Part shown: piece by piece, positions 11,770-28,585 of the stretch
Layout of the letters: every line of letters starts with the position of its first letter
Position numbering within the stretch: the first letter of the stretch is position 1
NCBI GenBank assembly: GCA_027531565.1
Contig: JAPZSB010000007.1
Location: 186,001-250,000 of the forward strand
Reading direction: 5' to 3'
Source: Beijerinckiaceae bacterium
GTDB lineage: Bacteria > Pseudomonadota > Alphaproteobacteria > Rhizobiales > Beijerinckiaceae
DNA: 64,000 nt
The notes under the pieces: model-generated
What the model saw: only the letters and a program-made list of their open reading frames with translations
Databases searched by the model: none
What the model was told of the DNA's origin: nothing
Made by a program: the position numbers and the translations under genes

Positions 11770-12492
11770 TCAGTCCGGATTGGCCGGGGCGTGATGGCTG
11801 CCGAGATAGAGTTCGGCGGCGCGGTCATCGGCGAGGAGATCCGTGGCCGGGCCGGCCAGCGCCACCTGCCCGCCATCGAGGATCGCGCCGCGATGGGCGA
11901 TGGCGAGGGCCTGCCGCGCCCGCTGTTCGATGAGCAGCACGGCCGTTCCGGTTTCGGCCAGGCGGGCGATGTGCCGGAAGCTGGATTCCACCAGAGCGGG
12001 CGAGAGCGCGGCGGTCGGCTCATCCAGCACCACGACGCGGGGCCGGGTCATGAGGGCGCGGGCAAAGGCGAGCTGCTGACGTTCCCCGCCGGAGAGCGAG
12101 CCTGCCCGCGACCGCGCACGCCCGGCGAGGGCCGGGAACAGCGCGAAGAGCTCGTCGATGCGCTCACGGGCGCGGGAGACGCCCTCGACCACCTCGAGAT
12201 TCTCGCGGATGGTCAGCGAGGGGAAGACATTCGCCACCTGCGGCACATAGCCGATCCCGGCGCGGGCCCGCGCCTCGGCCGGCAGGCCGGTAATATCGCG
12301 CCCCTCCAGCCGGACCGAGCCGGCAAGGCGCGGCAGCAGGCCGAGCACCGCCTTGGCGAGGGTGGATTTGCCAGCGCCGTTGGTGCCCGCGACGACGAGG
12401 ATTTCGGCCGGATCGAGCACGAGATCGATCCCGTTGAGGATATCGACTTCCGAATAGCCGCCGCGCAGGTCGCGGATTTCAAGCAGGTTCAT
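11770..12492 (-). CDS. livF: Branched-chain amino acid-type ABC transporter ATPase LivF
   Basis: 240-residue cytoplasmic ATPase with Walker A GTNGAGKST, signature LSGGERQQ and Walker B VVVLDEPTA. Length and order match LivF. Its start overlaps the livG stop by 4 bp (ATGA), indicating translational coupling. It is the last gene of the TetR-amidohydrolase-livKHMGF operon. The real substrate of such systems is often an amide, urea derivative or aromatic acid rather than Leu/Ile/Val, and the linked hydrolase points the same way. Confidence 0.93.
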   Translation of the reverse strand: MNLLEIRDLRGGYSEVDILNGIDLVLDPAEILVVAGTNGAGKSTLAKAVLGLLPRLAGSVRLEGRDITGLPAEARARAGIGYVPQVANVFPSLTIRENLEVVEGVSRARERIDELFALFPALAGRARSRAGSLSGGERQQLAFARALMTRPRVVVLDEPTAALSPALVESSFRHIARLAETGTAVLLIEQRARQALAIAHRGAILDGGQVALAGPATDLLADDRAAELYLGSHHAPANPD

Positions 12493-13277
12493 GCGGCATT
12501 CCCCGCCTGGGCGTTTCCGCCGGTTGCCCCGCCGAGATAGGCCTCCCGGACCAGCGGGTCGGCCAGCACGGCAGCGGGCGTGCCCGAGGCGATGACACGG
12601 CCGCGATCCATGACATGCATGGTCGAGACGAGTCGCGAGAGCGCGCCGAGATCATGCTCGATGATGAGGAAGCCGGTGCCGCGGGCATGCAATTCGCGGA
12701 TCCGCCCCGAGAGCTGCTCGATCAGCACCGGGTTCACGCCGGCAAAGGGTTCGTCGAGCAGGATCAGGCGGGCCCCGGTCATCAGCGCGCGGCCGAGTTC
12801 GAGCAGTTTCTTCTGGCCGCCGGACAGACTGGAGGCGGCAAGATTGGCCACCGGCTCGAGCCGGAGGAAGGCCAGCACCTCGTCGATGCGCGCGGCCAGG
12901 GCTTTCTCCTCCGCTCTCACGCGGGCGGGGCGCAGGAACAGGCCGGCAAGACTTTCCCCGGTCTGGCCCGGCGCGGCGGCGGCGAGGTTCTCGCGCACCG
13001 AAAGATGGGTGTATTCGCGCGGGACCTGGAAAGTGCGGACCATGCCGGCCTGCGCGCGGGCATGGGCGGGAAGCCGGTCGAGCGGGGCCTCGCCAAGCTG
13101 CACGCTGCCGGCATCCGCCTCGATGAAACCGGTCACGAGCGAGAAGAGCGTCGACTTGCCGGCCCCGTTCGGGCCGATAATGCCGGTCATCCCGTTTTCG
13201 GGAATGGCGAGGCTGACGCCATCCACCACTTTCAGGCCGCCATAGGCCTTGGTCAACCCGTCGAGGATCAGCGTCAT
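12489..13277 (-). CDS. livG: Branched-chain amino acid-type ABC transporter ATPase LivG
   Basis: 262 residues with Walker A GPNGAGKST, signature SLSGGQKK, Walker B LILLDEPFAG and the switch His in IIEHD. The ATG at 13277 overlaps the livM stop (ATGA). The reading frame stays open upstream through livM, but that part is a shadow because livM has a well-formed membrane protein in another frame. Confidence 0.93.
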   Translation of the reverse strand: MTLILDGLTKAYGGLKVVDGVSLAIPENGMTGIIGPNGAGKSTLFSLVTGFIEADAGSVQLGEAPLDRLPAHARAQAGMVRTFQVPREYTHLSVRENLAAAAPGQTGESLAGLFLRPARVRAEEKALAARIDEVLAFLRLEPVANLAASSLSGGQKKLLELGRALMTGARLILLDEPFAGVNPVLIEQLSGRIRELHARGTGFLIIEHDLGALSRLVSTMHVMDRGRVIASGTPAAVLADPLVREAYLGGATGGNAQAGNAA

Positions 13278-14161
13278 CGGCGGCGCGCCTCCCCCATCAG
13301 CCCCTGCGGGCGGTAGAGCGTGAACAGGATCAGCGCCAGCCCGACCAGGCCGAGGCGCACGCTGGCCATTTCCACTTCCGAAATGAAGGGCACGATGTCG
13401 CGCAGGAAGCGCGAGCCTTCGAGGAAGAGCATCAGGATCAGCGTGCCGGCCAGCGCGCCGGAAACGCGGCCGACCCCGCCCATGATGATGGCCATCCAGA
13501 TCTGGAAGGTCACGAGCGGCACGAACTGGTCGGGCGAGATATAGCCGATGTAATGGGCATAGAAGGCACCGGCGAGACCGGCGAGGGCGGCGCCGAGCAT
13601 CAGCACCTGCACCTTGAACCGGGCCGGATCCTTGCCGAGCGCCTTCACTGCCTCCTCGTTGTCGCGGATGGCCTCGATCATGCGACCGAAGGGCGAGGCG
13701 ACAATCCGGCGCATGGCGAGAATGGCGACGAGGTTGACCAGAACCAGCAGGGCGAGGACCGCGGCGCCGTTGGCAAGGCCGACGCCGAGCCCGGAAAAGA
13801 GCTTGGGGATGCCGGGAATGCCCTGGACGCCGTTGGTCAGCCATTTCTCGGACGTCACGACGAGGCGGACGATCTCCGAGAAGCCGAGGCTGACAATGGC
13901 GAAATAATCCTCCCGCAGGCGCAGCGAGACCATGCCGAGCGGCCAGGCCGCGAGCGCGGCCAGCACGGCGGCCGCCGCGAAGCCGACCGGCAGCGGCCAG
14001 CCAGCCTGGGCGAAGAGGGCGGTGGCATAGGCGCCGATGGCGAAGAAGCCGACATGGCCGAAATTGATGATGCCGGTCATGCCGTAGTGCAGCGTCAGCC
14101 CGAGGGCGAGCAACACATAGATGGCGGAGATGATGCCGATCGCGACGAGATAGGCTTCCAT
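13274..14161 (-). CDS. livM: Branched-chain amino acid-type ABC permease LivM
   Basis: 295-residue inner-membrane permease with about eight to ten hydrophobic segments. It contains the typical LivM stretch YFAIVSLGFSEIVRLV and the ATPase-docking region around EAIRDNEEAVKALG. It is coupled on both sides: a 1-nt TGATG overlap with livH and ATGA with livG. Confidence 0.93.
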   Translation of the reverse strand: MEAYLVAIGIISAIYVLLALGLTLHYGMTGIINFGHVGFFAIGAYATALFAQAGWPLPVGFAAAAVLAALAAWPLGMVSLRLREDYFAIVSLGFSEIVRLVVTSEKWLTNGVQGIPGIPKLFSGLGVGLANGAAVLALLVLVNLVAILAMRRIVASPFGRMIEAIRDNEEAVKALGKDPARFKVQVLMLGAALAGLAGAFYAHYIGYISPDQFVPLVTFQIWMAIIMGGVGRVSGALAGTLILMLFLEGSRFLRDIVPFISEVEMASVRLGLVGLALILFTLYRPQGLMGEARRR

Positions 14162-15027
14162 CAGCGCGCCCCCGCCACGGTGCCGAACAGGCCTTTCGGG
14201 CGGACCAGCAGCACGGCCAGCAGCACGATGAAGGACAGGGCGATCTTGTAGGTGAAGCCGACAAAGGGTGTCGCGATTTCCTGGACGATGCCAAGCGCGA
14301 TCCCCGCGACGATGGCGCCGCCGGCATGGCCGATCCCGCCGAGGATGGCTGCGGCGAAGGCGGGCAGAAGCAATTCCCAGCCCATTTCGGGGCTGACCAC
14401 GGTCTTGATGCCGATGATCGTACCGGCGAGGCCCGAGACAGCGCCGGCGAGCAGCCAGAGCGTCATCATCACCTTGTGCGGCGAGATGCCGGAGACGCGC
14501 GCAAGGGCAGGATCATCCGCCACGGCGCGCATGCGGCGGCCGATCGGCGTGAGATGCAGCAGCGCGAAGACCGCCGCCAGCGCCAGAAGCACCACGAGCG
14601 AGAGTTTCAGGTCGTTGGGGTGGATGCGGATGTCGAGGATGCGCCAGGGCCGGACGAGCGGCATCTGGAAGACCTGCTGCTGATGACCGAAGACCACGCC
14701 CATGAAGGCGCGGATGACGAAGGCAACCCCGATCGACGCCAGCAGCGCCGCCACGGAGGAGCGGCCTGAAAGCCGACGGAACACGAGGAGATAGCCGATG
14801 AGCCCGGCCAGCGCGCCGCAGGCGGCGCCGGCAAGGCCACCAAGGATGAGCGAGCCGCTCACGCCCGAGGCCGCCAGCGCCGCATAGGCGCCGAGCGTCA
14901 TGACATCGCCGGTCGCGGCATTGGCGAAGCGCGCGATGCCGAAGACCAGCGTGATCGCCAGCGCAGCAAGGCCGATGACGAGCCCGGAAACGAGCCCGTT
15001 GATGAGGAGTTCGGCAAAGGCGGTCAT
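14161..15027 (-). CDS. livH: Branched-chain amino acid-type ABC permease LivH
   Basis: 288-residue inner-membrane permease. The segment VFGIARFANAATGDVMTLGA is close to the LivH consensus (usually GxINFAHGDxxMLGA), and RRMRAVADDPALARVSGI marks the coupling loop. I chose the ATG at 15027; a longer in-frame version would add 22 residues of non-hydrophobic leader lying in the livK-livH spacer hairpin. Confidence 0.92.
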   Translation of the reverse strand: MTAFAELLINGLVSGLVIGLAALAITLVFGIARFANAATGDVMTLGAYAALAASGVSGSLILGGLAGAACGALAGLIGYLLVFRRLSGRSSVAALLASIGVAFVIRAFMGVVFGHQQQVFQMPLVRPWRILDIRIHPNDLKLSLVVLLALAAVFALLHLTPIGRRMRAVADDPALARVSGISPHKVMMTLWLLAGAVSGLAGTIIGIKTVVSPEMGWELLLPAFAAAILGGIGHAGGAIVAGIALGIVQEIATPFVGFTYKIALSFIVLLAVLLVRPKGLFGTVAGAR

Positions 15028-15055
15028 GGCACCCCGGGATTCGGGAGGAAGGGAA

Positions 15056-15085
15056 CCCCGGAGGCGGGAGAGAACACCTCCGGGG
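15056..15085 (-). promoter_or_regulatory. Stem-loop between livK and livH
   Basis: CCCCGGAGG (15056-15064) pairs perfectly with CCTCCGGGG (15077-15085) around a 12-nt loop, 11 bp after the livK stop. There is no T-run. It probably shields the livK message from 3' decay or partly terminates it, giving more binding protein than permease. Confidence 0.6.
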
Positions 15086-15096
15086 CCATTCAAGGG

Positions 15097-16317
15097 TCAG
15101 ATCTTCACAATATACTTGCGGTCGATATTCCCCTTGGACACGACACTGACGGAGAAGTCGGGCGTCACATCGCCGGACTGGTCGAAATCGAGGACCGACG
15201 AGGCGCCCTCATAGTTGATCTTGCCCTTCTTGAGGGCGTCCTTGCCCTCGGCGAAGGTCGAGACCTTGGTGCCGGCGGGGTTGGCGACCTCGCGGATCTT
15301 CGCATTGATCGCGGCGATGTTCGCGCCCGGGCCGGCCGCCTCCATCGCGAGAGCGAGGGTGACGACCATGTCCCAGGTCATGGCGGCATAGACATTGTCG
15401 AGGCCGGGCTTGCCCATGGCCTTCTGGTAGGCCGCGTCATAGGCCTTGAAGGCTTCCGAGCCCTCGTTCGAGATGCTGTCCACGGCGAAGATGCCCTCGG
15501 CGACCTCATTGCCGACCGCCTTGACCAGCTGCGGATTGGCCGCCCAGGCCGGGATGACCCATTTCGTGGTCTCGCCGGTCTGGAACCATTCGCGCAGGAT
15601 GATGGTGGTATCGGCAATGTAGGAGCCGGTGACGATCACATCCGGCTTGGCGGCGAGCACCTTCTGCAATTCGGCGCGGTAGCTCGGCTGGTTGGGCTCG
15701 TAGACCACCGCCTCGACGACCTTGCCGCCCTTCGCTTCCCAGGCCTTCTTGAAGCCTTCCGTGTTGCCGATACCGGAGGCATTGTTGAAGGCCATGGTGG
15801 CCGGGCGCTTGAAGCCCTCCTTCTGGCAGAGTTCGGCGAAGGCACGGCCGAAGCGGTCATTCGTGGCCTGGAACCGGTAGGACAGGCCCTTCGCATTGGC
15901 CGGCGGCACCGAGAGGGCCGGCGCGCCGGAGGTGTTCATCAGGAAGATGTTGGCGTCGTTGATCAGCGGGATCACCGCCAGCGAAACCCCGGAGGACCAG
16001 GTGCCGAGCACGGCCTGCACCCGGTTGACCTCGATGAGCTTCTTGGCCGCGAGAACGGCAGCCTGCGGCGTTGTCTGGGTATCCTCGGCGAAGACCTCGA
16101 AGCGCCGGCCACCGGCGCCGCCGGCCGCGTTCACCATCTCCACCGCCGCGACGATCATCTTCTGCATGCCGGTGCCATAAGGCGAGCCGGCACCGGTGAC
16201 CGGGTTGAGCGCGCCGATGCGGAACGTTTCCGCCTGGGCGAAGGCGCGCTGGCCGAGCGAGCCGGTCAAGGTGGCGGCGGCGAGCGCCTGGAGGGTGGAG
16301 CGGCGAGACAGGTTCAT
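15097..16317 (-). CDS. livK: Branched-chain amino acid-type periplasmic binding protein
   Basis: 406 residues of the type I periplasmic-binding fold (LivK family). The N-terminus has SRRSTLQALAAATL and a cleavage site near AFAQ, a twin-Arg-like export signal. The mature part starts FRIGALNPVTGAGSPYG. It delivers ligand to LivHM. The gene follows the amidohydrolase gene by 37 bp and is followed by a strong hairpin. Confidence 0.92.
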   Translation of the reverse strand: MNLSRRSTLQALAAATLTGSLGQRAFAQAETFRIGALNPVTGAGSPYGTGMQKMIVAAVEMVNAAGGAGGRRFEVFAEDTQTTPQAAVLAAKKLIEVNRVQAVLGTWSSGVSLAVIPLINDANIFLMNTSGAPALSVPPANAKGLSYRFQATNDRFGRAFAELCQKEGFKRPATMAFNNASGIGNTEGFKKAWEAKGGKVVEAVVYEPNQPSYRAELQKVLAAKPDVIVTGSYIADTTIILREWFQTGETTKWVIPAWAANPQLVKAVGNEVAEGIFAVDSISNEGSEAFKAYDAAYQKAMGKPGLDNVYAAMTWDMVVTLALAMEAAGPGANIAAINAKIREVANPAGTKVSTFAEGKDALKKGKINYEGASSVLDFDQSGDVTPDFSVSVVSKGNIDRKYIVKI

Positions 16318-16354
16318 GACTTAAACTCCCGGTTGTTGATTGTCAGTTCAGGCG

Positions 16355-17593
16355 TCAGTTCAGGGCTTTGCGCTTCACGAAGGCGCCGCCGCGCAGGATG
16401 ACCGGCATGTGCCGGCCCTGACGCGTCAGCAGCGAGAGATCGGCGAGGGGATTGCCCTCGACGACAACGAGATCGGCATGGGCGCCGGGGGCAACGGTGC
16501 CGATCCGGCCCTCCATCCGGCAGAGGCGGGCGGCAATATGCGTCGCCGAGGCGATGACATCCCTCGGCTTGAGCACGCGGCCACGGATGACGAATTCTTC
16601 CGATTGGTGGCGATGCATCGCGCCGAGCAGGTCGCTGCCATAGGCCATGGTCAGCCCGGCATCCTGCATGATCTCGAGGGATTTCAGCCCGGCAAGGCGG
16701 ACCGTGTCGATCTTGGCGACGGAATCCGCCGGGAAGCCGAGCGAGGCGCCTTCGCGGGCCAGCATCTCGTAGGTGACGAGGGTGGGCACGGCGACGGCGC
16801 CGGCCTTCGCGGCGAGGCGGGCTGTTTCCGGACCGATCAGGTTGCAATGCTCGAGGGAATGCACGCCGCATTCGACAGCCCGGCGGATCGCCTCGTCGGT
16901 GTAGAGATGGGCCGAGACATAGGTGCCCGCCGCCGCGGCCTCGGCGACGATGGCGGAGATTTCCTCGCGGCTGAAGCCGAAGAAATGGATCGGGTCCGTC
17001 GGCGAGGCGACGCCACCATTCGCCATGATCTTGATGAAATCCGCCCCGGCCTTGATTTCCTCGCGCGAGGCCTTGCGGACCGCGTCGACCCCGTCGCAGA
17101 TCCGGCCCAAAGCGCCGAGCGGGAACGGGCCGGTCTCCTGCGGCGGCCGGGAATCGAAGCGGCCCCGGAAATCGGCATGGCCGCCGGTCTGGCTCAGGGC
17201 CTTGCCCGAAATGACGAGGCGCGGCATCGGCAGGAGCCCCTCCTCCGCCGCAAGCTTCACGCCGAAATCCGCACCGCCGACATCGCGCACGGTGGTGAAG
17301 CCGCGCATCAGCATGCCCTGCATGATGCCGATGGCCCGGCTCATCACGAGGGAATCCGGCAAGGCGGCGTTGCGGCCGAGATCGGCCAGGCCGGCGACGA
17401 CATGGACATGGCAATCGATCAGGCCGGGCATCAGCGTGCGGCCGCCGAGATCGAGGACCTTCGCCTTCGCGGAAGCGACTTTCGGCCCGACCTCGCGGAT
17501 GGTGCCGCCCTCGACGAGCACGTTGACCGGATCGCCGGGGCGGTCGGCCGTGCCATCGACGATGCGGGCATTGGCGAGAAGAAGCATGGCCAT
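16355..17593 (-). CDS. Metal-dependent amidohydrolase (imidazolonepropionase/prolidase-like)
   Basis: 412 residues, amidohydrolase superfamily. The HxH metal pair is in GLIDCHVHV, the probable carboxylated-Lys region in FIKIMANGG, a further His in LYTDEAI-adjacent VSAHLYTD and in SLEHCNLIG, and the catalytic Asp in AYGSDLLG. No signal peptide, so cytoplasmic. It starts 2 bp downstream of the TetR stop and precedes the Liv importer, so it probably hydrolyses the imported compound, perhaps an amide, cyclic amide or Xaa-Pro peptide. The exact substrate cannot be read from the sequence. Confidence 0.87.
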   Translation of the reverse strand: MAMLLLANARIVDGTADRPGDPVNVLVEGGTIREVGPKVASAKAKVLDLGGRTLMPGLIDCHVHVVAGLADLGRNAALPDSLVMSRAIGIMQGMLMRGFTTVRDVGGADFGVKLAAEEGLLPMPRLVISGKALSQTGGHADFRGRFDSRPPQETGPFPLGALGRICDGVDAVRKASREEIKAGADFIKIMANGGVASPTDPIHFFGFSREEISAIVAEAAAAGTYVSAHLYTDEAIRRAVECGVHSLEHCNLIGPETARLAAKAGAVAVPTLVTYEMLAREGASLGFPADSVAKIDTVRLAGLKSLEIMQDAGLTMAYGSDLLGAMHRHQSEEFVIRGRVLKPRDVIASATHIAARLCRMEGRIGTVAPGAHADLVVVEGNPLADLSLLTRQGRHMPVILRGGAFVKRKALN

Positions 17594-17594
17594 T

Positions 17595-18260
17595 TCAGTG
17601 TCCCTTCAGCGGAATCGTCACGATGCGCGGGCCGCCGCGTTCCGGGCGGGCGGCGGCAAGCTGGGCGCGGATGCTGGCTTTCCAGAAATCCAGCAGCCGG
17701 CGGTAATAGGGTGGGTCATCGCGCAGGATGGTCTGGGCGATCATGCCGCGGATCAGGCACATCGTGGCGTTGAGCAGATCGCGCCCCGCTTCCGGCTTCA
17801 TGCCGTAGCGGGCGGTCAGCTCGCCCCAGATTTCATCGAGAGCCGCGTGCCAGCGGCTGACCACCGGCACCAGCCGGCGGCGGAACATCGCATTGTGGCG
17901 GGCCTCGGGGAGATATTCGAGCGTCACGTAGAACAGCCGGTCCGACATGACACCGTAGAGGAACTCGATCAGCGCATCGGAGGAGCTTTCACCCTCGGCG
18001 ACACGGGTGGCGTAGCTCTTCAGCTCGCCGATCACCTTGTCGAGCATGTCCTCGATCGCGGCGGCGATGAGCTCCTCGCGGCTCTCGAAATGATGGGTCA
18101 ATGCCCCGCGGGAGACGCCGGCCGTTTCGGCAATGTCATTGGTGGAGGTGCCGGCGAGGCCGCGCTCATGCATCAGCGTGACGGCGGCATCGAGCAGGCG
18201 CTGGCGCGTCTCGGCCGATCGCTCGGCCTGGGATCGCCTCGGCTTCGGCTGCTGCGCCAT
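17595..18260 (-). CDS. TetR-family transcriptional regulator
   Basis: 221 residues. The N-terminal helix-turn-helix is clear (LLDAAVTLMHERGLAGTSTN, then ETAGVSRGALTHHFESREEL), followed by an all-helical ligand domain. I chose the ATG at 18260 because a GGAGG site lies 7 nt upstream; in-frame ATGs at 18266 and 18314 are weaker. It heads the operon with the amidohydrolase and Liv genes and probably represses it, released by the imported compound. Confidence 0.9.
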   Translation of the reverse strand: MAQQPKPRRSQAERSAETRQRLLDAAVTLMHERGLAGTSTNDIAETAGVSRGALTHHFESREELIAAAIEDMLDKVIGELKSYATRVAEGESSSDALIEFLYGVMSDRLFYVTLEYLPEARHNAMFRRRLVPVVSRWHAALDEIWGELTARYGMKPEAGRDLLNATMCLIRGMIAQTILRDDPPYYRRLLDFWKASIRAQLAAARPERGGPRIVTIPLKGH

Positions 18261-18302
18261 ACCCATCCCTCCCCTCGAATGGAGGAAGGCTAACCGATCA
18301 AA

Positions 18303-18324
18303 ACAAACCGTCAAGCCTGTTTGT
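18303..18324 (-). promoter_or_regulatory. Candidate TetR operator overlapping a promoter
   Basis: Inverted repeat ACAAAC (18303-18308) and GTTTGT (18319-18324) with a 10-nt spacer, 43 bp upstream of the tetR start. Read on the minus strand, the spacer and right arm include TTGACG, a good -35 box, with a poor -10 (TAGCCT) about 18 bp on. This layout suits autorepression of the operon. Confidence 0.5.
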
Positions 18325-18368
18325 AAATGTATGGCAGCGATGCATCGATGACCGCGGGACCCGCGCGA

Positions 18369-20798
18369 TCAGACCTTGTAGCGCCGCGCCGATTGCTGGA
18401 GCGTGGCCGAGATGGCGGTGAGATCGCCGGCGCGCTGGTCGAGTTCCTGGGCCGAGCGGACATTCTCGCCCACGGTCTGGCGGATCTGCCCGACGACATG
18501 GCCGGTGGTGGAGATCGCCTGGTCGACATCGCTCATGTAGGTCGCGAGATGGACGACATCGCCGGACATGCGCCCGACCGACTGCGCCACGACGCTGACA
18601 CGGCCGGACACATCCTCAACCGCACCGTGGACGGTGCCGGCCACGCGCGCCTGGCTCTCCGAGGCATCGGCAATGGCGGTGATGATGCCGCCGATATCGG
18701 CAAGGACCGTGCGCAGGGCCTCGAAACTCTGGCTGGCTTCGGCCGTGCCGCTGCGCAGGGCGGCGACGCGGGACTTGACCTCCATGGTCGCGCGCTGGGT
18801 CTGGAGCGCCAGCGCCTTGACCTCGGAGGCGACGATGGCGAAGCCGCGGCCCGCCTCGCCGGCCCGGGCCGCCTCGATGGTCGCATTGAGGGCCAGCAGG
18901 TTGGTCTTGCTGGCAATATCGTCGATCAGGTCGGCGATGGCGTTGATCTGGTCGCTGGCGAGAACGAGGCTCGACATCTGCTGCTCCGAGCGCCCGACCA
19001 GTTCGCTGGCGGAATGGGAGACCTCGCGGCCTCGGCGGGCCGATTCCCCGACATCCATCACCGAGCCGGACAGCGCACCGATCTGGTTCGCCAGTTCGTT
19101 GATCGTCGTGCTCATGCCCATCGCGGCTTCGGCGACGCGGCCGGCATCATCCCGCAGGTCCTCGGCCTGGCCAGCGCTCTGGCGCGAGCGGCCCTGCAGG
19201 TCCTGCGTCGAGCGGCCCACCTCGGCAGTTTCGCGGTCGAGCATCTCCGAATCGCCCCGGAAACGCTCCGAGAGCCCCTTCAGCGCGCCGGATGCCTGCG
19301 CGATCCGGCCGGCATCCCGCGCGATCTGCGCCTGAAGGCGGTGAAATTCATCGAGGAAGGGATTGATGATCTGCGCGATCTCGCCGGATTCGTCGCCGGA
19401 ATCCGCGTCGAGCCGGCGGGTGAGGTCACGGTCGACCTGGGTGATGCGGTAGAGTTCCTGCTGCAGCGCGCCCGTGCCGATCTGGGCGCCATGCTCGGCG
19501 ACATTGAGGCCGCGCAGTTCATCCTCGGCGGAGAGCCGGATGCCGATCGTGCGCTTCATGACCCAGAACGCCGCAAGGCCCATGCCGAAGGCCCAGACGA
19601 AGGCGGCGGTGACGCCCTTCAGCTGGACAAGGAACGACCCCATCACCGTCAGGTCGCCCAGCTTGCCCGACAGGGCGAAGAACGGCACCAGCAGCGTGCC
19701 GATCACGCCGGCCACGCCATGCACGCCGAGCACGCCGGCCACGTCATCGAGCTTCATCCTGCTGAGAACGAAATCCTCGACATAGACCACGGAGGCGCCA
19801 CAGCAGAGGCCGATGACAACCGCACCCTTGAGGCCGACCGCATCGCAGCCGGCGGTGATGCCGACCAGGCCGGCGAGCAGGCCGTTGATCAGGCGGTTGG
19901 TCTGGTAGCAGCCGTCGCGGAAGCGCCCGATCAGCACGGCGATGATGCCGCCGGCCGCAGCCCCGAGCAGCGTGTTGGCCGCGATCTTGCCGATCGCCCC
20001 GCTGGCAGCCACCGTGGAGCCCGCATTAAAGCCGATCCAGCCAACCAGCAGCAGCATCGCTCCGAAGGCCGTCAGGACATGCGAATGACCATGGATCGGC
20101 AGCGGCTTGCCGTTGGCATCGAAGCGGCCGATGCGCGGGCCGAGCATGATGATGCCGGCCAGCGCGATCCACGCGCCGACCGAATGGACCACGGTGGAGC
20201 CGGCAAAATCGATGAAGCCCTGTGCCGCAAGCCATGGCTTGTTCTCGGTGACAAGGCCCGCTCCCCAGGCCCAATGGCCGAAGACCGGATAGATGACGAG
20301 GCCGACCATGGCGGCCAGCACGATATAGGCGCTGTAGCTCATCCGTTCGGCGACCGCGCCGGATACGATGGTGGCGGCCGTGCCGGCAAAGGCAACCTGG
20401 AAGACGAAATAGGTCTGGCCCCAGTCATCGAGGCCCTCGAAGGACCAGATCGGCCCGGGCATGCCGAAAAGGCCGCCGATCGAGGGACCGAACATCAGCA
20501 TGAAGCCGAACAGGGCGAAGCAGAAGGCGGAGACGAAGAAATCGATCACGTTCTTCTGGGCGACATTGATCGTGTTCTTCGAGCGGACCATGCCCGCTTC
20601 GAGCATCAGGAAACCGCATTGCATCAGCAGGACCAGCGCGGCCGCGGTGATCACCCAGACATGGTTGAGGCTGGTCTTGAGGGCGGCGAGTTCCGCGGCG
20701 AGATTGGCATCGGCGGCCCAGCCCGGGGCTGGCGTGAGAACAAGACCTAAGAGCAAAGCGGCGACAGCGCTTCGGGCAGCAGGGCGAGCCGGTATCAT
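18369..20798 (-). CDS. Ammonium transporter (Amt) fused to a chemoreceptor signalling domain
   Basis: A single uninterrupted 809-residue frame. After a signal-like segment, residues about 35-440 are a complete Amt/Rh channel. Asp197 ([10 protein letters not shown]), the twin pore histidines His205 and His360 (LGVHGVAGV) and the C-terminal motif GLNVAEHG are all kept. It continues into a HAMP-like helix ([18 protein letters not shown]), a long coiled coil and a classical MCP hairpin tip ([12 protein letters not shown] then [18 protein letters not shown], about 627-660). There is no CheR-binding tail. It probably senses external ammonium and signals through CheA/CheW, with or without transport. 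No glnK or che gene is nearby. I prefer the ATG at 20798, which has GGAAAA upstream, over an in-frame ATG at 20834 that lies in AT-rich leader without a Shine-Dalgarno. Confidence 0.93.
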
Positions 20799-20940
20799 CA
20801 CATTTTCCGTCGACAGAGCACGATCGGACGGCATTTTTGATTAGAATTGTATAATATATGGTTAAAATACTGAAAATCCTAGGATTTCTCTCCTCGGCGC
20901 TGGATCTGTTGCCGGCTCGTGAAAAATGCCGTCCCGACGG

Positions 20941-22038
20941 TCACGGAACGGCGGAAATCAGCAGGAAGACCAAGAAGATCACGAGGTGGATCACCCCGTG
21001 CAGCGCTGTGGTCTTGCCGGTGCCGAGCGTCAGCGTGCTGACGAAGAGCGTGAGGACCAGCATGGCCATGGCCGAGCTGGAGACGCCGAGTTCGAGCTTC
21101 ATCCCCATGACGACGGAGAGCACCGCCACGACCGGCACCGTGAGCCCGATGCTGGCGATAGCAGACCCGACGGCGAGGTTGATCGAGTTCTGCAGACGGT
21201 TCTGCACGGCGGATTTCACCGCGGCGATGCTCTCCGGCAGCAGGACGATGGTGGCGATGACCACGCCGACAAAGGCATCCGGCAGGCCGGCCCAGGCCAC
21301 CGCCGCATCGAGCGGGGCAGACAGCACCTTGGCCAGCAGGATCACCGCGCCGAGAGAAGCGAGGAGCAGGACCAGACTGGCCTGCGCGACGGCGCGGGTC
21401 GGCCGGTCATGCTGGCGGACCTCTTCGCCGACGGTCGGTGTGTCGAGGAAGTAATTCCGGTGGCGGATGGTCTGGGTGAAGACAAAGGCGCCCCAGAGCA
21501 GGAGCGAGACCGCCCCGACCACCAGCACCTGCAGGCGGCTGAAAGACGGGCCGGATTCCGAGAGCGTGAAATTCGGCAGGATCAGCGTGATGGTGGCGAG
21601 CGTCCCGAGCACGGCCAGCGCCGAGGAGGCACCGAGCAACTGGAAGCTCTGCTCGTGATGGCGGCGCCCGCCGGCGAGCAGGCAGAGGCCGATCACCCCG
21701 TTGAGAACGATCAGCACCGCGGCAAAGACCGTATCCCGCGCGACGCCTGCCGAGCCCTGCACGCCCGAGAGCATGATCGAGACGATCAGCCCGACCTCGA
21801 TCACCGTGACCGCCACGGCAAGCAGGATCGAGCCGAAGGGCTCGCCCAGTTTCAGCGCGAGGATTTCCGCATGATGCACGGCCGCGAAGACCGCGCCGCC
21901 GAGCAGGACCGAGACGAGAAGCAGGACCCAGACCGCCCCGGCGGGGATGATGCCGCCGAATTTCAGGCCGAGGACGAGCAGGGCGACCCCGGGGGCGATC
22001 CAGGTCCAGGCGGGATTGGTGACGGAATGCGCGGCCAT
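20941..22038 (-). CDS. chaA: ChaA-type Ca2+(Na+)/H+ antiporter
   Basis: 365 residues with about eleven transmembrane segments. Both CaCA-family alpha repeats are visible: GEPFGSILLAVAVTVIEV early and LLPESIAAVKSAVQNRLQNS later, each with the conserved acidic residue. It should exchange cytoplasmic Ca2+ or Na+ for protons at the inner membrane. GAGG lies about 7 nt before the ATG at 22038. It is upstream of the Amt-MCP gene on the same strand with 142 bp between, part of it AT-rich, so they are likely separate units. Confidence 0.9.
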   Translation of the reverse strand: MAAHSVTNPAWTWIAPGVALLVLGLKFGGIIPAGAVWVLLLVSVLLGGAVFAAVHHAEILALKLGEPFGSILLAVAVTVIEVGLIVSIMLSGVQGSAGVARDTVFAAVLIVLNGVIGLCLLAGGRRHHEQSFQLLGASSALAVLGTLATITLILPNFTLSESGPSFSRLQVLVVGAVSLLLWGAFVFTQTIRHRNYFLDTPTVGEEVRQHDRPTRAVAQASLVLLLASLGAVILLAKVLSAPLDAAVAWAGLPDAFVGVVIATIVLLPESIAAVKSAVQNRLQNSINLAVGSAIASIGLTVPVVAVLSVVMGMKLELGVSSSAMAMLVLTLFVSTLTLGTGKTTALHGVIHLVIFLVFLLISAVP

Positions 22039-22157
22039 GCTCTACCTCGTGACGGTCCTCGAGAGATAGCATCCCGGGCGGGAATTGCGACCTGCCGGAC
22101 CGGGCGCAGGCATCGCCGCCCACAGCCCGTTGCCGCTGCGTCACAGGGCGCAGGCGA

Positions 22158-22907
22158 TCAGGCCGGCTGCAGGCGCGGATCGGTGAAAATGCGGCCCCAG
22201 CCGGCAAGGCTGTCGGGGCGGAGGCCGATCGCCATCAGGCAGCCCCAGAGCGTGACCGAGACCGAATCGAGCACCATCGTGCCCCCGGCGGGTTCGAGCT
22301 GCGGGGCGAGGGCGGCGCCGTCCATGTTGGTGCAGAGCACGGTGATCGCATCCGGCTCAACGGCGAGGCATTCGCCGATCATGCCGGCAATCGTCGCCGG
22401 CGGCACGGTGCCGAAGGCGAAATTGTCCCGGATGCCGAGATGCCGTTCCGCCGGGCAGGCATAGCCCGCTGCGGCATAGGTCGCGATGATGCGGGCCTGC
22501 ACGTCGTCGGTATAGGGCGAAACCAGCGCCTGCGACCTCGCGCCGAGGCGGCCGAGAATCTCGAGCAGGGAGAGGATGCAGGTGGTCGCGCGGATGCCGG
22601 TGGCGGCCTCGATCCGCTCGACCAGCCGGCGGTCGCGGTCGAACCCGAGCCACGAAGCGGAGGTGCCGTTCCAGGCGATGACATCCACCTTGGCATGGGC
22701 GAGGAGTTCCGCCGCGCGCAGGATCTCGCTGTCATCGAACTGGGCGAGCGCGGCGGCATCGAGCGCGATTTCGGTCACCCGGAAGCGGCTGGAATGCGCC
22801 GTGACGCCCGGCAGGCCCGCCAGCAGGGCTGCCGTGACCGGTTCGAGCACCGTGTTCGACGAGGGCACCAGCATGCCGATGCGGCGGCGTGGGGTATCAG
22901 GCGTCAT
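22158..22907 (-). CDS. Asp/Glu racemase-superfamily enzyme (maleate isomerase / arylmalonate decarboxylase-like)
   Basis: 249 residues starting MTPDTPRRRIGMLVPSSNT, typical of the maleate isomerase/AMDase branch. The C-terminal catalytic Cys is present (VLCTNMDG), but at the N-terminal position where racemases and maleate isomerases carry Cys this protein has Gly-Thr-Ser (AWNGTSASW), as in arylmalonate decarboxylase. Its ATG lies 11 bp inside the hyuB gene, so it is translationally coupled to the hydantoinase subunits. A racemase, isomerase or decarboxylase acting on the hydantoinase substrate or product is plausible. Confidence 0.8.
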   Translation of the reverse strand: MTPDTPRRRIGMLVPSSNTVLEPVTAALLAGLPGVTAHSSRFRVTEIALDAAALAQFDDSEILRAAELLAHAKVDVIAWNGTSASWLGFDRDRRLVERIEAATGIRATTCILSLLEILGRLGARSQALVSPYTDDVQARIIATYAAAGYACPAERHLGIRDNFAFGTVPPATIAGMIGECLAVEPDAITVLCTNMDGAALAPQLEPAGGTMVLDSVSVTLWGCLMAIGLRPDSLAGWGRIFTDPRLQPA

Positions 22908-24561
22908 GGATATGGCCTTCTTCGATATAGCCTTCCTGCCGGTCATGGGTGATGGCGGCGGGATCGCGCTCGGCGGGCGGGCCGAAGCCGCCGCCGCCGG
23001 AGGTGACGAGCTGGACAACATCGCCCTTCCGGAGCGGCATGTTGGCGACCTTGGAGGGCAGGTCGCGCAAGGCGCCGTCCCGCGTCAGCGTGAGGCGGCC
23101 GGCCGCGCCGGCCCCACCGCCCTGGAGGCCGAACGGGGTGAAGCGGAACCGGTCCATCTGGGCGGTGAAGGTGGCGGCTTCGGAATCGATCCGCCAGATC
23201 CGCGTCAGGCCGAGGCCGCCGCGCTGACGGCCGGCCCCGCCCGAGCCGGGCGCGAGGCCATAGCCGAGATAGGTGACGGGGACATCACTCTCGATCATCT
23301 CGATCGGGATGGCGGCGTTGTTGTGCATGCCGAAGGAGAGCGCATTGGCGCCGTCGCCACGCGGATGGGCGCCGCAGCCCCCGACCTCGATCTCGACCAG
23401 CACCTTGCGGGTGCCATCGGCGGCGCGGGTCTGGAAGGAGCAGACATAGCTCACTGCGTAATAGGCGGCGGGCATCCGGTCGGGGATGGCCTGCGAAAGC
23501 GCGCCGAAGACGACATTGAGCAGTACATGGCACGGCGCGATGCGATGCGCGACCGGCGCCGGGTGGCGGGCGGAGATGATCAGGCCTTCCGGGGCGATGA
23601 TCTCGATCGGACGGTAGCAGCCGGCATTCGGCACGATGGGCCGGTCGGCGGCCGCCATGATCGCGAAATAGACCGCAGAGCTGGACGAGCCGAGCGTGGC
23701 GTTGATCGGCCCGGCGGCTTCCGGTGCGGAGCCGGAGAGATCGACGACCAACCGGTCCCCCGCCACGGTGATCGCGGCATGGATGCGCACCGGCCGGTCC
23801 GGCGTGATGCCGTCATCGTCGAGGAAATCCTCGAATTCATAGGTGCCGTCGGGAATGCGGCGGATGCAGTCGCGCATGGCCGCTTCGGAGAGGTCGAGCA
23901 GGCGCGCCGCCGCCTTCTGCAGCGTAGCCCCGCCATAGCGCCGGGCGAGGCGGGTGATCGCCTCGACGCCGACGCCGAGCGAGGCGACCTGCGATTGCAG
24001 GTCGCCCATCACGGTGGCGGGCTGGCGGACATTCTGGCCGATCAGCGCCCAGAGCGCCTCGTTGCGCCGCCCCGCCTCGAACAGCTTCACCGGCGGGATG
24101 CGCAGGCCTTCCTGATAGATCTCGGTGGCGGTGGCGGCATAGGAGCCGGGCGACATGCCGCCCATATCGAGATGGTGGCAGAGCGTGCCGACAATGGCGA
24201 TGCAGCGCCCCGCCTCGAAGACCGGCCGGAACGAGAGGATGTCCGGCAGGTGCTGGCCACCGCAATAGGGATCATTGGTGATGATGACATCGCCATCCTG
24301 CCATTCGGCGGCGGGGATGAAGCGCTCGAGAATGGCGCGGAGGCCATAGCCCATCGAGTTGAGATGCTGCGGAATGCGGGCGGATTGCGCGATATTGTTG
24401 CCGGCGGCATCGAAGATCGCCGTCGAGTAATCCAGCATCTCGCGGACAATGGTGGAACGGCTGGTCCGCCACATCGTGACATCCATATCCGCCGCCGCCG
24501 CGGTGAGGGCGTTGCGGATGACTTCCAGCTCGATCGGGTCGATCCCGTCGGTCTTGGCCAT
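22897..24561 (-). CDS. hyuB: Hydantoinase B / 5-oxoprolinase subunit B family
   Basis: 554 residues. The start MAKTDGIDPIELEVIRNAL and the blocks ITNDPYCGGQHLPDI and GGGGFGPPAERDP are characteristic of HyuB/OplB. Together with HyuA it forms the ATP-dependent enzyme that opens a cyclic amide (hydantoin, 5-oxoproline) or, in the related acetone carboxylase family, carboxylates a ketone. Start ATG at 24561 overlaps the hyuA stop by 1 nt (TGATG). The open frame extends further upstream, but that part lies inside hyuA and is a shadow. Confidence 0.92.
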   Translation of the reverse strand: MAKTDGIDPIELEVIRNALTAAAADMDVTMWRTSRSTIVREMLDYSTAIFDAAGNNIAQSARIPQHLNSMGYGLRAILERFIPAAEWQDGDVIITNDPYCGGQHLPDILSFRPVFEAGRCIAIVGTLCHHLDMGGMSPGSYAATATEIYQEGLRIPPVKLFEAGRRNEALWALIGQNVRQPATVMGDLQSQVASLGVGVEAITRLARRYGGATLQKAAARLLDLSEAAMRDCIRRIPDGTYEFEDFLDDDGITPDRPVRIHAAITVAGDRLVVDLSGSAPEAAGPINATLGSSSSAVYFAIMAAADRPIVPNAGCYRPIEIIAPEGLIISARHPAPVAHRIAPCHVLLNVVFGALSQAIPDRMPAAYYAVSYVCSFQTRAADGTRKVLVEIEVGGCGAHPRGDGANALSFGMHNNAAIPIEMIESDVPVTYLGYGLAPGSGGAGRQRGGLGLTRIWRIDSEAATFTAQMDRFRFTPFGLQGGGAGAAGRLTLTRDGALRDLPSKVANMPLRKGDVVQLVTSGGGGFGPPAERDPAAITHDRQEGYIEEGHIHDA

Positions 24562-26636
24562 CACCCGCCCTCCCCTGCGAAATCCGCGACGAGATGCCCG
24601 CCGGCGGCGCGGCGCAGCCGCCAGGCCGGGGCGAGATAGATCGTGGTATAGGCTTCCTCGATCATGGCGGGGCCGGTGATCTCGAGGTCCGGCCCGATCG
24701 CCTCGCGACGCCAGATCGCGGCCTCGCCCCAGCCTTCGGCGAGATAGACCGGGCGGCTGCCGATGGGCCTGCCGCTGGCCCCGGCCGGGCTCCCTGCCGC
24801 TTCCGGACGCGGCAGCAGGCCCTTCGCGGCAAGGCGGAGCGTGACCATCTCCACAACATCCCCGGGGTTGCAATAGGAGAAACGCTGCTCGTGCTGGGCG
24901 TGGAAACGCGCGGCGATGGCGGCGATCCCCTCGGGGCCGAAGCCGGAATCGAGGCAGGGCACCGTAAGTTCGAAGGCCTGGCCACGATAGCGCAGGTCGA
25001 TGGCCAGGACGAAACGCTGCCGATCCGGCGGGATGCCGTCGGCTGCGAGCTGCGCCTCGGCCTGGGCCTGCATCTCCCTCGCCAGCCGGACGAGGGTCTC
25101 GCCAGCCCCGTCATCGAAGCGGCGGATCAACGAACGGGCAAAGGCGTGCTCGATATCCGCCTCGAGAATGCCGCGCGCCGAGAGGGTGGAGGCATCAACC
25201 GGGAAGACGATCCGGCGGATCGCCAGTTCCTCGGCCACCGCGCAGGCATGGACGGAGCCCGCCCCACCGAAGCTGAGCAGGGTGAAATCGCGCGGGTCGA
25301 GCCCTTTCTCGAACAGGCTGACGCGGATCGCCGCGGCGAGGCTGGTATTGGTCAGCCGGAGAATGCCCGCTGCGGCGGCATCCTCGGCCAGACCCAGCGG
25401 TTCACCGACCCGGTTCCGGATTGCCGCGCGGGCGCCGTCAAGATCGAGTGCCATCCTGCCGCCGAGGAAGAAGGCCGGGTCGAGCCGCCCCAGCACCAGA
25501 TTGGCATCGGTCACGGTGGGTTCGGTGCCGCCCCGGCCATAGCAGACCGGGCCCGGCCGGGCGCCGGCGCTTTCCGGACCGACACGGAGGCCCCCGCCGG
25601 TTTCCACCCGGGCGATGGAGCCGCCGCCGGCACCGATGGTGCGGATGTCGATCATCGGCACGCGGACCGGCAGGCGCTCGATCTCGCTCTGGGTGACGAT
25701 TTCCAGCCGGTCCTCGCGCACGACCGAGACATCATAGCTGGTGCCGCCCATATCCACCGCGACGACATTGGCCTCGCAGAGGGTGCGGGAGAGGCCGAGC
25801 GCGGCCATGGCACCGCCACTCGGGCCGGAGAGCAGCAGGCGCACCGGTTCGGCCGCGGCCGTGGCCGGCGCGCAGACCCCGCCATTCGACTGGACGATCA
25901 GCAGGCGAGGCTGGAAATTCTCGGCGGCGAGGCGCCGTTCGAGCCGCTCGAGATAGGAGCGGACGACCGGCTGGAGCAGCGCGTTCAGCACCGTGGTGCT
26001 GGTGCGCTCGTATTCGCGGATTTCCGGGCTCACCGTCGAGGAGCAGGAGATGGCGAGGCCGGGCAGGCGTTCGGCGATCCTTGCCGCGAGGCGCTGTTCA
26101 TGCACCGGATTGGCGTAGGCATGGAGCAGGCTGATCGCCACTGCCTCGACGTGGAGCGCCGCAAGGCGGGCGATGACCGCGTCGAGATCGGCCTCGCCGG
26201 GTTCGATCTCGGCCCGGCCATCGGCCTTCCTCCGCTCGCGCAGGCCCAGCCGGCGACTGCGCGGCACAAGGGCGGGAACCGGGCGCGGCCAGGTGGCGTA
26301 GATGTCGCGCCGGTTATGGCGGCCGATCTCCAGCACGTCCTCGAAGCCGGCGGTGGTGACCAGCGCCCCGCGCGCCATCTTGTTTTCCAGCACGGCATTG
26401 GTGGCGATGGTGGTGCCGTGGAGAATGTAGCCGACTTCGTCGAGCCGGAACCCGTCCCGCGCGGCGGCGCCATGGATGCCCTCCATCAGCCCGAGCGAGG
26501 GATCCTCCGGGGTGGTGGGCACCTTGAAGGAACGGATCGCGCCCGAACGGGAATCGAGGATCTGGAAATCGGTGAAGGTTCCCCCGATATCGACCCCGAT
26601 CCGGACGGGCTTCCCGTCATGACTGCCTGCTGACAT
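24561..26636 (-). CDS. hyuA: Hydantoinase A / 5-oxoprolinase subunit A family
   Basis: 691 residues. The N-terminal ATP-binding motif VRIGVDIGGTFTDF, HGTTIATNAVLE and the later VDMGGTSYDVS are the hallmark actin-like phosphate loops of HyuA. It supplies ATP-driven phosphorylation for the HyuAB complex in the cytoplasm. The start at 26636 is 2 bp after the dctM stop. Linkage to a TRAP importer implies that an anionic cyclic amide or related carboxylate is taken up and opened. Confidence 0.92.
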   Translation of the reverse strand: MSAGSHDGKPVRIGVDIGGTFTDFQILDSRSGAIRSFKVPTTPEDPSLGLMEGIHGAAARDGFRLDEVGYILHGTTIATNAVLENKMARGALVTTAGFEDVLEIGRHNRRDIYATWPRPVPALVPRSRRLGLRERRKADGRAEIEPGEADLDAVIARLAALHVEAVAISLLHAYANPVHEQRLAARIAERLPGLAISCSSTVSPEIREYERTSTTVLNALLQPVVRSYLERLERRLAAENFQPRLLIVQSNGGVCAPATAAAEPVRLLLSGPSGGAMAALGLSRTLCEANVVAVDMGGTSYDVSVVREDRLEIVTQSEIERLPVRVPMIDIRTIGAGGGSIARVETGGGLRVGPESAGARPGPVCYGRGGTEPTVTDANLVLGRLDPAFFLGGRMALDLDGARAAIRNRVGEPLGLAEDAAAAGILRLTNTSLAAAIRVSLFEKGLDPRDFTLLSFGGAGSVHACAVAEELAIRRIVFPVDASTLSARGILEADIEHAFARSLIRRFDDGAGETLVRLAREMQAQAEAQLAADGIPPDRQRFVLAIDLRYRGQAFELTVPCLDSGFGPEGIAAIAARFHAQHEQRFSYCNPGDVVEMVTLRLAAKGLLPRPEAAGSPAGASGRPIGSRPVYLAEGWGEAAIWRREAIGPDLEITGPAMIEEAYTTIYLAPAWRLRRAAGGHLVADFAGEGG

Positions 26637-26638
26637 CA

Positions 26639-27940
26639 CTACCCGCGCATATAGTTCGGCAGCCATGTCGCGATGGCCGGAAACAGGATCAGCAGCACGG
26701 CGAAGAGCATCATGATCGCCGCATAGGGCAAGGCGCCGCGGATGACATCCGCCACCGGCCCGCCATCGGTGCGGATGCCCTGCACGACGAAGAGATTCAT
26801 GCCCACCGGGGGCGTGATCAGGCCGAGTTCACACATCAGCACGATGAAGACGCCGAACCAGATCGGATCGACCCCGACCGAACTGACAACCGGGAAGACC
26901 AGCGGGATCGTGGCCACCATCATGGAGAGCGTGTCCATGAACATGCCCAGGACGAGGTAGAACAGGATCAGTGCGAGCAGCAATTGCACCCGTTCCAGCC
27001 CGAATCCGGTCACCCATTTCGTCAACGCCTCGCCGATGCCGGTGAGGCTGAGCGCAAGGTTGAGGATGAAGGCGCCGAGCACGATCAGCAGGATCATGCC
27101 CGTGGTGCGGGCACTGGAGAGGAAGCAGGTCTCGAGGAGCGAGACCGTGAGGCGGCCCTGCAGGGCGATGAGGATGAAGGCCGTGACGAGGCCGAGCGCC
27201 GCGCTTTCCGTGGCCGTGGCGATGCCGGAATAGAGCGTGCCCATCACGAGGCCGAAAACCAGGAGCGGCTCGACGAGGTAGCGCAGCAGGCGGATCCGCT
27301 CGGCCAGCGGCACATGGACCGGGACCATCTTCTCCTTCGCGAAGCGATGGCGGAGCGTGATCCAGAGCATGAACATGCCAGCCAGAGCGAGGCCGGGAAT
27401 GATGCCGGCGATGAAGAGCTTGCCCACCGAGGTATTCGTCATCGAGCCGTAGATGATGAAGTTGATCGAAGGCGGGATCATGATGCCGAGCGTGCCACCC
27501 GCCGCAAGCGAGCCGAGGGAATCCGGCATCGGGTAGCCGTTCTTGCGCAAGGAGGGCAGAGCCACGGTGCCGATGGTCGCCGCCGTGGCAACCGACGAGC
27601 CCGAGGTGGCGGCGAAGAGCGCGCAGCAGCCGATATTGGTGTGCAGCAGCCCCCCCGGCAGCCGGCCGAGCCAGGCCGCGAAGACCGTGTACATCCGGTC
27701 CGCGATGCCGGAGCGCAACAGCAATTCGCCGAGCATGACAAAGAGCGGAATCGCGGTGAGGTTGTATTCGCTCATCACCCCCCAGGCGACGGAGGCCGAG
27801 GAGGAGAAGAAGGCGAAACCATAGGCCATCATGCCGCCGACAAGGCCGAGCAGCAGCATGACCGCCGCGATCGGCATGCCGACCAGCATCAGCCCGACCA
27901 TGACAAGGAAGCCGAGGATCCCGACCGCGACGGTGCTCAT
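26639..27940 (-). CDS. dctM: TRAP transporter large permease (DctM)
   Basis: 433 residues with about twelve transmembrane helices. Family stretches include ATSGSSVATAATIGTVALP and GIMIPPSINFIIYG, and near the end GLITPPVGMNLFVVQGI. It forms the Na+-driven transmembrane pathway with DctQ. The start overlaps the dctQ stop by 4 bp and the stop is 2 bp before hyuA. Confidence 0.95.
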   Translation of the reverse strand: MSTVAVGILGFLVMVGLMLVGMPIAAVMLLLGLVGGMMAYGFAFFSSSASVAWGVMSEYNLTAIPLFVMLGELLLRSGIADRMYTVFAAWLGRLPGGLLHTNIGCCALFAATSGSSVATAATIGTVALPSLRKNGYPMPDSLGSLAAGGTLGIMIPPSINFIIYGSMTNTSVGKLFIAGIIPGLALAGMFMLWITLRHRFAKEKMVPVHVPLAERIRLLRYLVEPLLVFGLVMGTLYSGIATATESAALGLVTAFILIALQGRLTVSLLETCFLSSARTTGMILLIVLGAFILNLALSLTGIGEALTKWVTGFGLERVQLLLALILFYLVLGMFMDTLSMMVATIPLVFPVVSSVGVDPIWFGVFIVLMCELGLITPPVGMNLFVVQGIRTDGGPVADVIRGALPYAAIMMLFAVLLILFPAIATWLPNYMRG

Positions 27941-28530: not shown

Positions 28531-28552
28531 GGTTGCCCTCCGGAAATGGCAA

Positions 28553-28585
28553 AGCCCGCGCATCCTTCGAGGGAATGCGCGGGCT
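28553..28585 (-). promoter_or_regulatory. Stem-loop between dctP and dctQ
   Basis: AGCCCGCGCAT (28553-28563) pairs perfectly with ATGCGCGGGCT (28575-28585), 11 bp. The loop can extend pairing (CCT/AGG). It lies 11 bp after the dctP stop, without a T-run: the expected place for mRNA stabilisation or partial termination. Confidence 0.65.

Follow-up and report, generated by a model that had tools for sequence, protein, structure and literature searches.

Can an ammonium transporter (Amt) that runs on, in a single reading frame, into the signalling domain of a methyl-accepting chemotaxis protein (MCP) act as the sensing part of a chemoreceptor? The question is raised by one gene in the window, the stretch of 64,000 nucleotides of Beijerinckiaceae DNA analysed here. 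Judged from its sequence, we consider with a probability of about 0.73 that this fusion is a transmembrane ammonium chemoreceptor, in which an Amt of the sensor type forms the sensing part. If this is true, a transporter fold serves directly as the sensing part of a chemoreceptor. Among the matches listed in a literature search, no title or abstract start described an Amt-MCP protein, and no bacterial ammonium chemoreceptor stood out. PMC5764959 cites Tremblay and Hallenbeck 2009 for Amt modules joined to other domains, and the Amt-MCP architecture may be listed there.

A single-frame fusion gene and its distribution

As the first-pass annotation had proposed, a full Amt module and an MCP signalling domain are encoded by a single gene on the minus strand of the window (20798-18369), whose product has 809 residues. 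The frame is open from an ATG at 20798 to the stop codon at 18369-18371; a second in-frame ATG lies upstream at 20834, and the start at 20798 precedes a stretch that resembles a signal peptide as judged by eye. In a Pfam scan of the whole protein, Ammonium_transp covered residues 47-438 (339.9 bits, E = 2.3e-101; positions 1-396 of the 399 of PF00909) and MCPsignal (PF00015) covered residues 587-747 (98.9 bits, E = 3.9e-28; cut-off, 34.6), and HAMP gave no match at E<=1. TIGR00836 (amt) matched with 352.1 bits, over its cut-off, and the NCBIfam MCP models matched with scores under their curated cut-offs. The MCP hairpin tip was recovered as annotated: both tip strings, of 12 and 11 residues, were found in the protein, and the tip aligned with those of 15 other MCPs of the same genome. 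The features of the locus are the following.

18369..20798, minus strand: Amt-HAMP-like-MCP fusion gene, 809 aa (open frame, Pfam, genus copies, dN/dS)
20715..20798, minus strand: signal-peptide-like N-terminus, residues 1-28 (by eye; AF2 helix at 7-20, low confidence at 21-28)
19485..20660, minus strand: Amt module, residues 47-438 (Pfam, Foldseek, residue mapping by alignment)
20361..20621, minus strand: stretch holding the counterparts of the second ammonium site of Ks-Amt5 (alignment to Ks-Amt5 as described in PMC5764959; class conservation)
19329..19472, minus strand: HAMP-like joint, residues 443-490 (Pfam HAMP in the group, AF2 helices; the end at 490 is an estimate)
18558..19040, minus strand: MCP signalling domain, residues 587-747 (Pfam; NCBIfam under cut-off)
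18819..18920, minus strand: MCP hairpin tip, residues 627-660 (alignment with 15 own-genome MCPs; AF2 turn at 645-647)

Full-length copies of the gene were found in 9 of the 17 genomes of the genus, its own included, and the other eight showed 68-94% identity. A sequencing error joining two genes, betrayed by a stop codon between residues 440 and 460, had been named beforehand as a refutation of the fusion; such a stop was not seen, the matches of all eight further homologues being free of internal stops. Pairwise comparison with these eight indicated purifying selection on the fusion gene, with a dN/dS of 0.03-0.18 in the linker. Against the four near homologues, dN/dS was 0.03-0.10 in every region; against the four far ones, it was 0.17-0.20 in the Amt module and 0.10-0.18 in the joint, and it ranged over 0.19-0.75 in the regions of the rod, for which dS approaches saturation. 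An assembly error was thus ruled out by the 9 full-length copies in 17 genomes and by the low dN/dS, which includes the joint, and also because 48 of 80 related loci (best 80 of 325) carry the fusion in a single frame. The notion of a sequencing or assembly error or of a decaying fusion, for which nothing in the window gene speaks and to which only the split relative described below would lend itself, is for practical purposes refuted by the independent full-length homologues and by the low dN/dS of all regions against the four near ones. That relative, L104 from Gracilibacillus (7881-9635 and beyond, plus strand), is a Bacillaceae Amt-HAMP-MCP that is split into two frames after the joint.

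The 48 Amt-MCP loci, which correspond to 47 distinct proteins, were identified by a contig scan; the rest of the best 80 of 325 loci comprised 12 Amt-histidine kinase (HK) fusions, 9 Amt-GGDEF/EAL fusions, 2 standalone Amt proteins, 4 loci cut at a contig end and 5 others (two of which, L077 and L099, were placed with GGDEF/EAL by reading their tails), and these class shares, assigned by motif and a home-made MCP profile, are not frequencies, since the scan was seeded by the window protein. By record title, the Amt-MCPs among these best 80 loci fall into nine phyla: Pseudomonadota (Alpha- and Gammaproteobacteria), Campylobacterota, Spirochaetota, Bacillota, Planctomycetota, Verrucomicrobiota, Myxococcota, Thermodesulfobacteriota and SAR324. 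Many of them come from metagenome bins; the named strains belong to Metabacillus, Salibacterium, Halobacillus, Desulfoluna, Desulfopila, Neorhodopirellula, Rhabdochromatium, Rhodobium, Roseibium, Cohaesibacter and Azospirillum. Matches spanning both domains occurred in at least 5 of 385 alphaproteobacterial genomes from an even draw (G000, G163, G328, G075 and, in two pieces, G249) and in at least 3 of 398 genomes of the phylum (G000, G561 and G765), both values being lower bounds, as two first-look candidates were scored per genome. Pfam analysis of ten chosen examples returned six Amt-MCPs (four with HAMP), one Amt-HK, one Amt-PAS-GGDEF-EAL and two Amt proteins alone. The fusion is therefore no singular case, because the Amt-MCPs form a widespread group, which adjoins the Amt-HK and Amt-GGDEF/EAL proteins on the tree.

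For the trees, the removal of rows at least 90% alike reduced the set from 148 to 118. A careful tree, of 98 Amt domains, which was built without a further 12 standalone rows and without L106, L194, L064, L098, L091, L048, L054 and L075 (long, cut or gappy), placed all 40 MCP rows in one 55-row group (99/99), together with 13 rows of standalone proteins, a single GGDEF row and the split L104. It forced 5 changes of label, compared to a mean of 31.3 after shuffling; the quick tree of all 118 rows had 6 changes, of which 5 were forced. These few forced changes indicate, on the evidence of the trees, that output domains changed rarely, yet did change. The placement of the standalone rows is unstable, since the quick tree put ten of the 13 with GGDEF. 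One clean origin for all Amt-MCPs was considered and found to be unsupported, the 55-row group being mixed and 5 changes being forced. In a weakly resolved tree of MCP cores, the window rod came together with the rods of five further Amt-MCPs (95*), and one group (91) held the 14 own-genome MCPs that were included besides the fusion.

The joint, the rod and the chemotaxis machinery of the host

In the A1 alignment, the exit from the Amt tail of the fusions is marked by a GLNxAEHG-like stretch, in which E, GLN, E and H are invariant in 47 of 47 rows, and the stretch that follows the tail shows the HAMP pattern DLT.R......GDE..E.A..FN. Standalone transporters stop soon after a GLD..HG or AYPEF tail. 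At E<=1, 41 of 47 Amt-MCP linkers gave a Pfam HAMP match, the best with 2.2e-11; the next family had 7 matches, and the other 6 linkers had no HAMP match at this threshold. The set consists of the window protein's linker plus 46 from the 47 loci that were assigned to the Amt-MCPs at this point, L062 and L039 being left out. The HAMP-like joint of the annotation is thus supported by the group, with the window's own copy (14.8 bits, E = 0.037) under the Pfam cut-off of 25. Monomer AF2 models, computed from alignments of 31 sequences for the window protein (pLDDT 82.0, pTM 0.60) and 29 for a Metabacillus homologue (82.9 and 0.62), both contained a short helix (443-455; Metabacillus, 405-417), a connector and a long helix leading into the rod. 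In the window model the connector spans 456-469 and the second helix starts at 470; its rod is broken, with low confidence, at 542-552 and 742-749.

Among HK, GGDEF and other rows, 22 of 38 linkers likewise matched HAMP (A3 alignment, E<=1; L104 left out). A HAMP-like element thus lies between Amt and a kinase or cyclase in many of these proteins, though Ks-Amt5 is described as lacking HAMP in PMC5764959. L075 (3319-3663, plus strand) encodes a cut Amt protein whose Amt domain grouped with the Amt-MCPs in the quick tree and whose joint is like theirs; its frame runs into the start of a histidine kinase before ending, an apparent swap of outputs behind the same joint. As the same type of Amt and a HAMP-like joint are found on three outputs (MCP, kinase and cyclase), these parts would be swappable and comparable.

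We compared the rod with those of the host's receptors. From the HAMP Glu to the tip, we counted 180 residues in the fusion and in 8 of the 9 motif-positive other own-genome MCPs, and 181 in the ninth (15 other MCPs were compared, and 6 gave no HAMP motif). In Metabacillus, the spacing was 173 in the Amt-MCP and in 12 of 13 host MCPs with the motif, the remaining one differing by three (15 of the 25 MCP matches in that genome were compared, two of them without motif). Across the 47 A1 rows, the spacing was 180 in 23, 173 in 6, other values in 12 and unmeasurable in 6; in the spirochaete host G425, four of 13 MCPs were measured, two being at 174 and two at 139. From the matched spacing, the tip of the fusion probably lies in the same layer as those of the other receptors, which suggests that Amt-MCPs join the normal arrays of their hosts. 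An ordinary transporter with an accidental tail was ruled out by the conserved joint and the spacing. The arm after the tip measures 160 residues in the fusion versus 136-140 in 12 of the 15 other own-genome MCPs, and the methylation-site pattern used found no consensus site in the fusion, nor in 7 of those 15.

The genome contains one CheA-CheW-CheY-like-CheB-CheR row, with an FlhA-family gene about 8 kb from cheA, and the host bacterium probably swims. Its CheA carries Hpt, dimerisation and ATPase domains, two CheW-like stretches and a receiver. Besides the fusion, 15 MCP frames lie above the family cut-off (among 18 MCP matches, one was the fusion, one was under the cut-off and one was a second stretch of a listed frame). 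CheW-family matches were obtained in every one of the 17 genomes of the genus and in all 4 of the distant hosts that were tested; since the fusion occurs in 9 of the 17, the presence of the pathway does not explain which of them carry it.

A separate P-II-amtB pair is present in the genome (L143), and ammonium uptake is likely to be carried out by this amtB, which adjoins the P-II gene. No P-II gene was detected among the 14 neighbouring proteins of the fusion that were scanned (window 11770-29898), in agreement with the annotation, which had noted that a glnK neighbour was missing. The neighbours encode a TetR regulator, an amidohydrolase, a branched-chain amino acid ABC transporter, a Na/Ca-exchanger-family protein, an arylmalonate-decarboxylase-family protein, hydantoinase A and B and a TRAP transporter. 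The hydantoinase A and B, arylmalonate-decarboxylase-family and TRAP transporter genes lie at 22158-28563 on the minus strand, and the first three recurred in all 4 close relatives. Seven neighbours were sought in L030-L060: each was present in at least 3 of the 4 close relatives (L030-L033), and none was detected in the flanking DNA of the farther L034-L037 at E<=1e-30, so by this measure no partner gene is conserved beside the fusion in L034-L037. No Rfam family matched at 17000-22500.

The counterpart of the second ammonium site and the probable signal

The best PDB sequence matches of the window protein were 8qj3/8qpf, followed by 6eu6, above A. fulgidus Amt1 and AmtB. The top match was Sd-Amt1 (E = 4.5e-92, residues 44-502), and in the Foldseek comparison the fold matched 6eu6 (TMt, 0.95) and 8qj4/8qj3 (0.93). 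According to PMC5764959, Ks-Amt5 binds ammonium, its kinase responds to ammonium, translocation is inefficient, and an extra ammonium site within the membrane is formed by Q24, E31, N47, D50, T51, T109 and T112. By alignment, the window counterparts of these residues are Q60, E67, N83, D86, F87, T143 and S146. The core of the site (Q24, E31, N47, D50 and T109) is thus matched by Q60, E67, N83, D86 and T143, and the remaining ligands, T51 and T112, are unmatched (F87 and S146, the latter being conservative); Sd-Amt1 has the same two letters.

We investigated how far this five-residue set is conserved. In the 118-row set, the complete set of five was found in 40 of 43 Amt-MCP rows, in all 28 Amt-HK and all 7 Amt-GGDEF/EAL rows, in each of the 3 other rows and in each of the 3 standalone rows that the quick tree placed in its sensor part (the cut, HK-like L075 was poorly aligned in this comparison); among the three exceptions in the Amt-MCPs, one was gapped and two had K60. 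In clade A transporters, the type that adjoins P-II here, Q60, E67, N83 and D86 were found in 0 of 15 rows and T143 in 1 of 15, and clade B transporters read A-E-N-L-S at the five positions in 14 of 15 rows, the other one being gapped. In the phylum sample, 21 of 28 loci had all five residues, 5 of these being standalone; five low-scoring standalone proteins read A-E-N-L-S, and one row was gapped. The Amt proteins L201, L206, L212, L214 and L215 stand alone in frames of 435-457 aa, have all five residues of the site and show 47-49% identity to the Amt part of the window protein; L199, a fused Amt-GGDEF protein from the phylum sample, has N and A at the D86 and T143 positions. The second site was thus rejected as a mark exclusive to fusions, and the set is the mark of a subfamily, most sampled members of which are fused, and not of fusion itself. 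Loop 5, counted between chosen columns, has 22 residues in 39 of 43 MCP and 7 of 7 GGDEF rows and 20 in 26 of 28 HK rows; it has 17 in 15 of 15 clade A transporters, whereas 13 of 15 clade B transporters likewise have 22.

The pore of the fusion is formed by F137, W178, D197, H205, F257, S261 and H360. The numbering of D197, H205 and H360 in the annotation was correct, and these residues align with their Ks-Amt5 counterparts. The window protein retains all seven, as do 41 of the 43 Amt-MCP rows. In L050 (frame 7910-10261, plus strand) and L069 (frame 7836-10286, plus strand), C, L and N stand at the positions of His205, Ser261 and His360 and K at that of Q60; E67, N83, D86, the joint and the MCP are kept, and the spacing is 180. 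The residues that close the pore of Ks-Amt5, F27, Y30 and F34, correspond to F63, L66 and M70 in the window protein; because two of the three are unmatched, the window Amt may still transport. The Y30 position is mostly L in Amt-HK rows (25 of 28), suggesting that the bulky plug may be particular to Ks-Amt5.

In the mechanism that we propose, external ammonium would enter the vestibule of the Amt module and occupy the in-membrane site (Q60, E67, N83, D86 and T143), as in Ks-Amt5. Occupancy would shift the cytoplasmic Amt tail (residues 424-436), which is continuous with the HAMP-like joint (443-490); the joint would relay the change along the MCP rod to the tip, the tip would switch the CheA-CheW complex of the one chemotaxis operon detected in the genome, and the cell would swim up or down an ammonium gradient. 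With a sensing-type channel, a joint and a steering rod in one protein, the fusion would thus probably let cells swim by ammonium. We infer this mechanism from kinship with Ks-Amt5, and with it the ligand, the direction of the response, the coupling path, the swimming and a weak or absent transport; the sequence case for an ammonium chemoreceptor is good. Counted against this reading were the window HAMP match under cut-off, the longer arm, the absence of a match to the methylation pattern, the non-exclusive second site, the presence of CheW-family proteins in all 17 genus genomes when the fusion is found in 9, and the pairing of an Amt trimer with an MCP dimer.

The first-pass annotation had taken the channel itself as the sensing module of a chemoreceptor and had named ammonium occupancy or flux as the signal. 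The first part is favoured by the sequence data; as for the signal, occupancy of the second site is likelier than flux through the pore, because the Amt is closest to Ks-Amt5 and Sd-Amt1 and keeps most of the extra site. We consider it unlikely that the fusion is a transceptor whose Amt still transports and whose transport cycle, or the inward current of ammonium or ammonia, is the signal. The full pore of the window protein, also seen in most Amt-MCP rows (41 of 43), would fit such a protein, as would L66 and M70 at two of the three blocking positions. However, the genome has a separate P-II-amtB pair for uptake, L050 and L069 have lost the pore histidines and kept E67, N83, D86, the joint, the MCP and the spacing, and Ks-Amt5, which has the pore residues, transports inefficiently according to PMC5764959.

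The altered pore and the K60 of L050 and L069 can also be read as a sign that the ligand may drift within the group, and ammonium as the ligand is itself deduced. It is nevertheless improbable that the protein uses the Amt fold as a scaffold to sense a different cation or an amine, or energy or pH in general, since the acidic pair E67/D86 and the selectivity filter W178/S261 are kept in the window protein.

Control might also run outward, the chemosensory array tuning an ammonium transporter through methylation and CheA. The tail of the fused Amt, its GLN/GLD..HG stretch, lies in the region by which AmtB is gated, and no P-II was found among the 14 neighbours scanned. No MCP rod is known to us to exert outward control, the same type of Amt is fused to kinases and cyclases, which are outputs, and the tip spacing fits the host receptors measured, so that such reverse control is very improbable.

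With respect to the preferred reading, that of an ammonium chemoreceptor, symmetry matters, as Amt proteins are trimers and MCPs are dimers. One doubtful but conceivable solution is a lattice in which the three MCP chains of an Amt trimer go to three different dimers, each of them shared with a neighbouring trimer, or in which a trimer of dimers is served by two Amt trimers; the channel would then be a node of the array, and ammonium would be read cooperatively. The Amt-MCP group would offer a clean system for asking how a trimeric membrane protein drives a dimeric signalling rod.

Comparison with known systems

Transmembrane MCPs with HAMP, those of the same genome and of the Tsr/Tar type, resemble the fusion in joint, rod and tip, and the host receptors measured also in HAMP-tip spacing. 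In contrast, such MCPs sense as dimers with a periplasmic domain, whereas the sensing part of the fusion is an 11-helix channel, trimeric by family, and its arm after the tip is about 23 residues longer than in 12 of the 15 own-genome receptors. AmtB-GlnK of E. coli, represented in this genome by the P-II-amtB pair, has the Amt fold in common with the fusion; unlike the fusion, AmtB is an assimilatory transporter that lacks the second site and a fused output and has a P-II partner. Amt-HK and Amt-PAS-GGDEF-EAL proteins (e.g., L080 and L107) have the same type of Amt and the same GLN..EHG tail as the fusion, and many of them also have a HAMP-like joint, but their output domain differs.

The Amt module of the fusion is 41% identical, in structural alignment, to Ks-Amt5 of Kuenenia stuttgartiensis (6eu6), an Amt-histidine kinase. 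The two share the pore residues, five of the seven second-site residues, a loop 5 of equal length in the ungapped alignment and the lack of a glnK neighbour; they differ in T51/T112 versus F87/S146, in two of the three plug residues and in output, a histidine kinase in Ks-Amt5 and an MCP rod in the fusion. Sd-Amt1 of Shewanella denitrificans (8qj3, 8qj4 and 8qpf, titled as a receptor with ON/OFF states) has the same seven second-site letters as the fusion, and its C-terminal output, which we take to be of the diguanylate-cyclase type, differs from the MCP. The fusion is thus a new effector variant of Amt sensors such as Ks-Amt5 and Sd-Amt1 and not a new kind.
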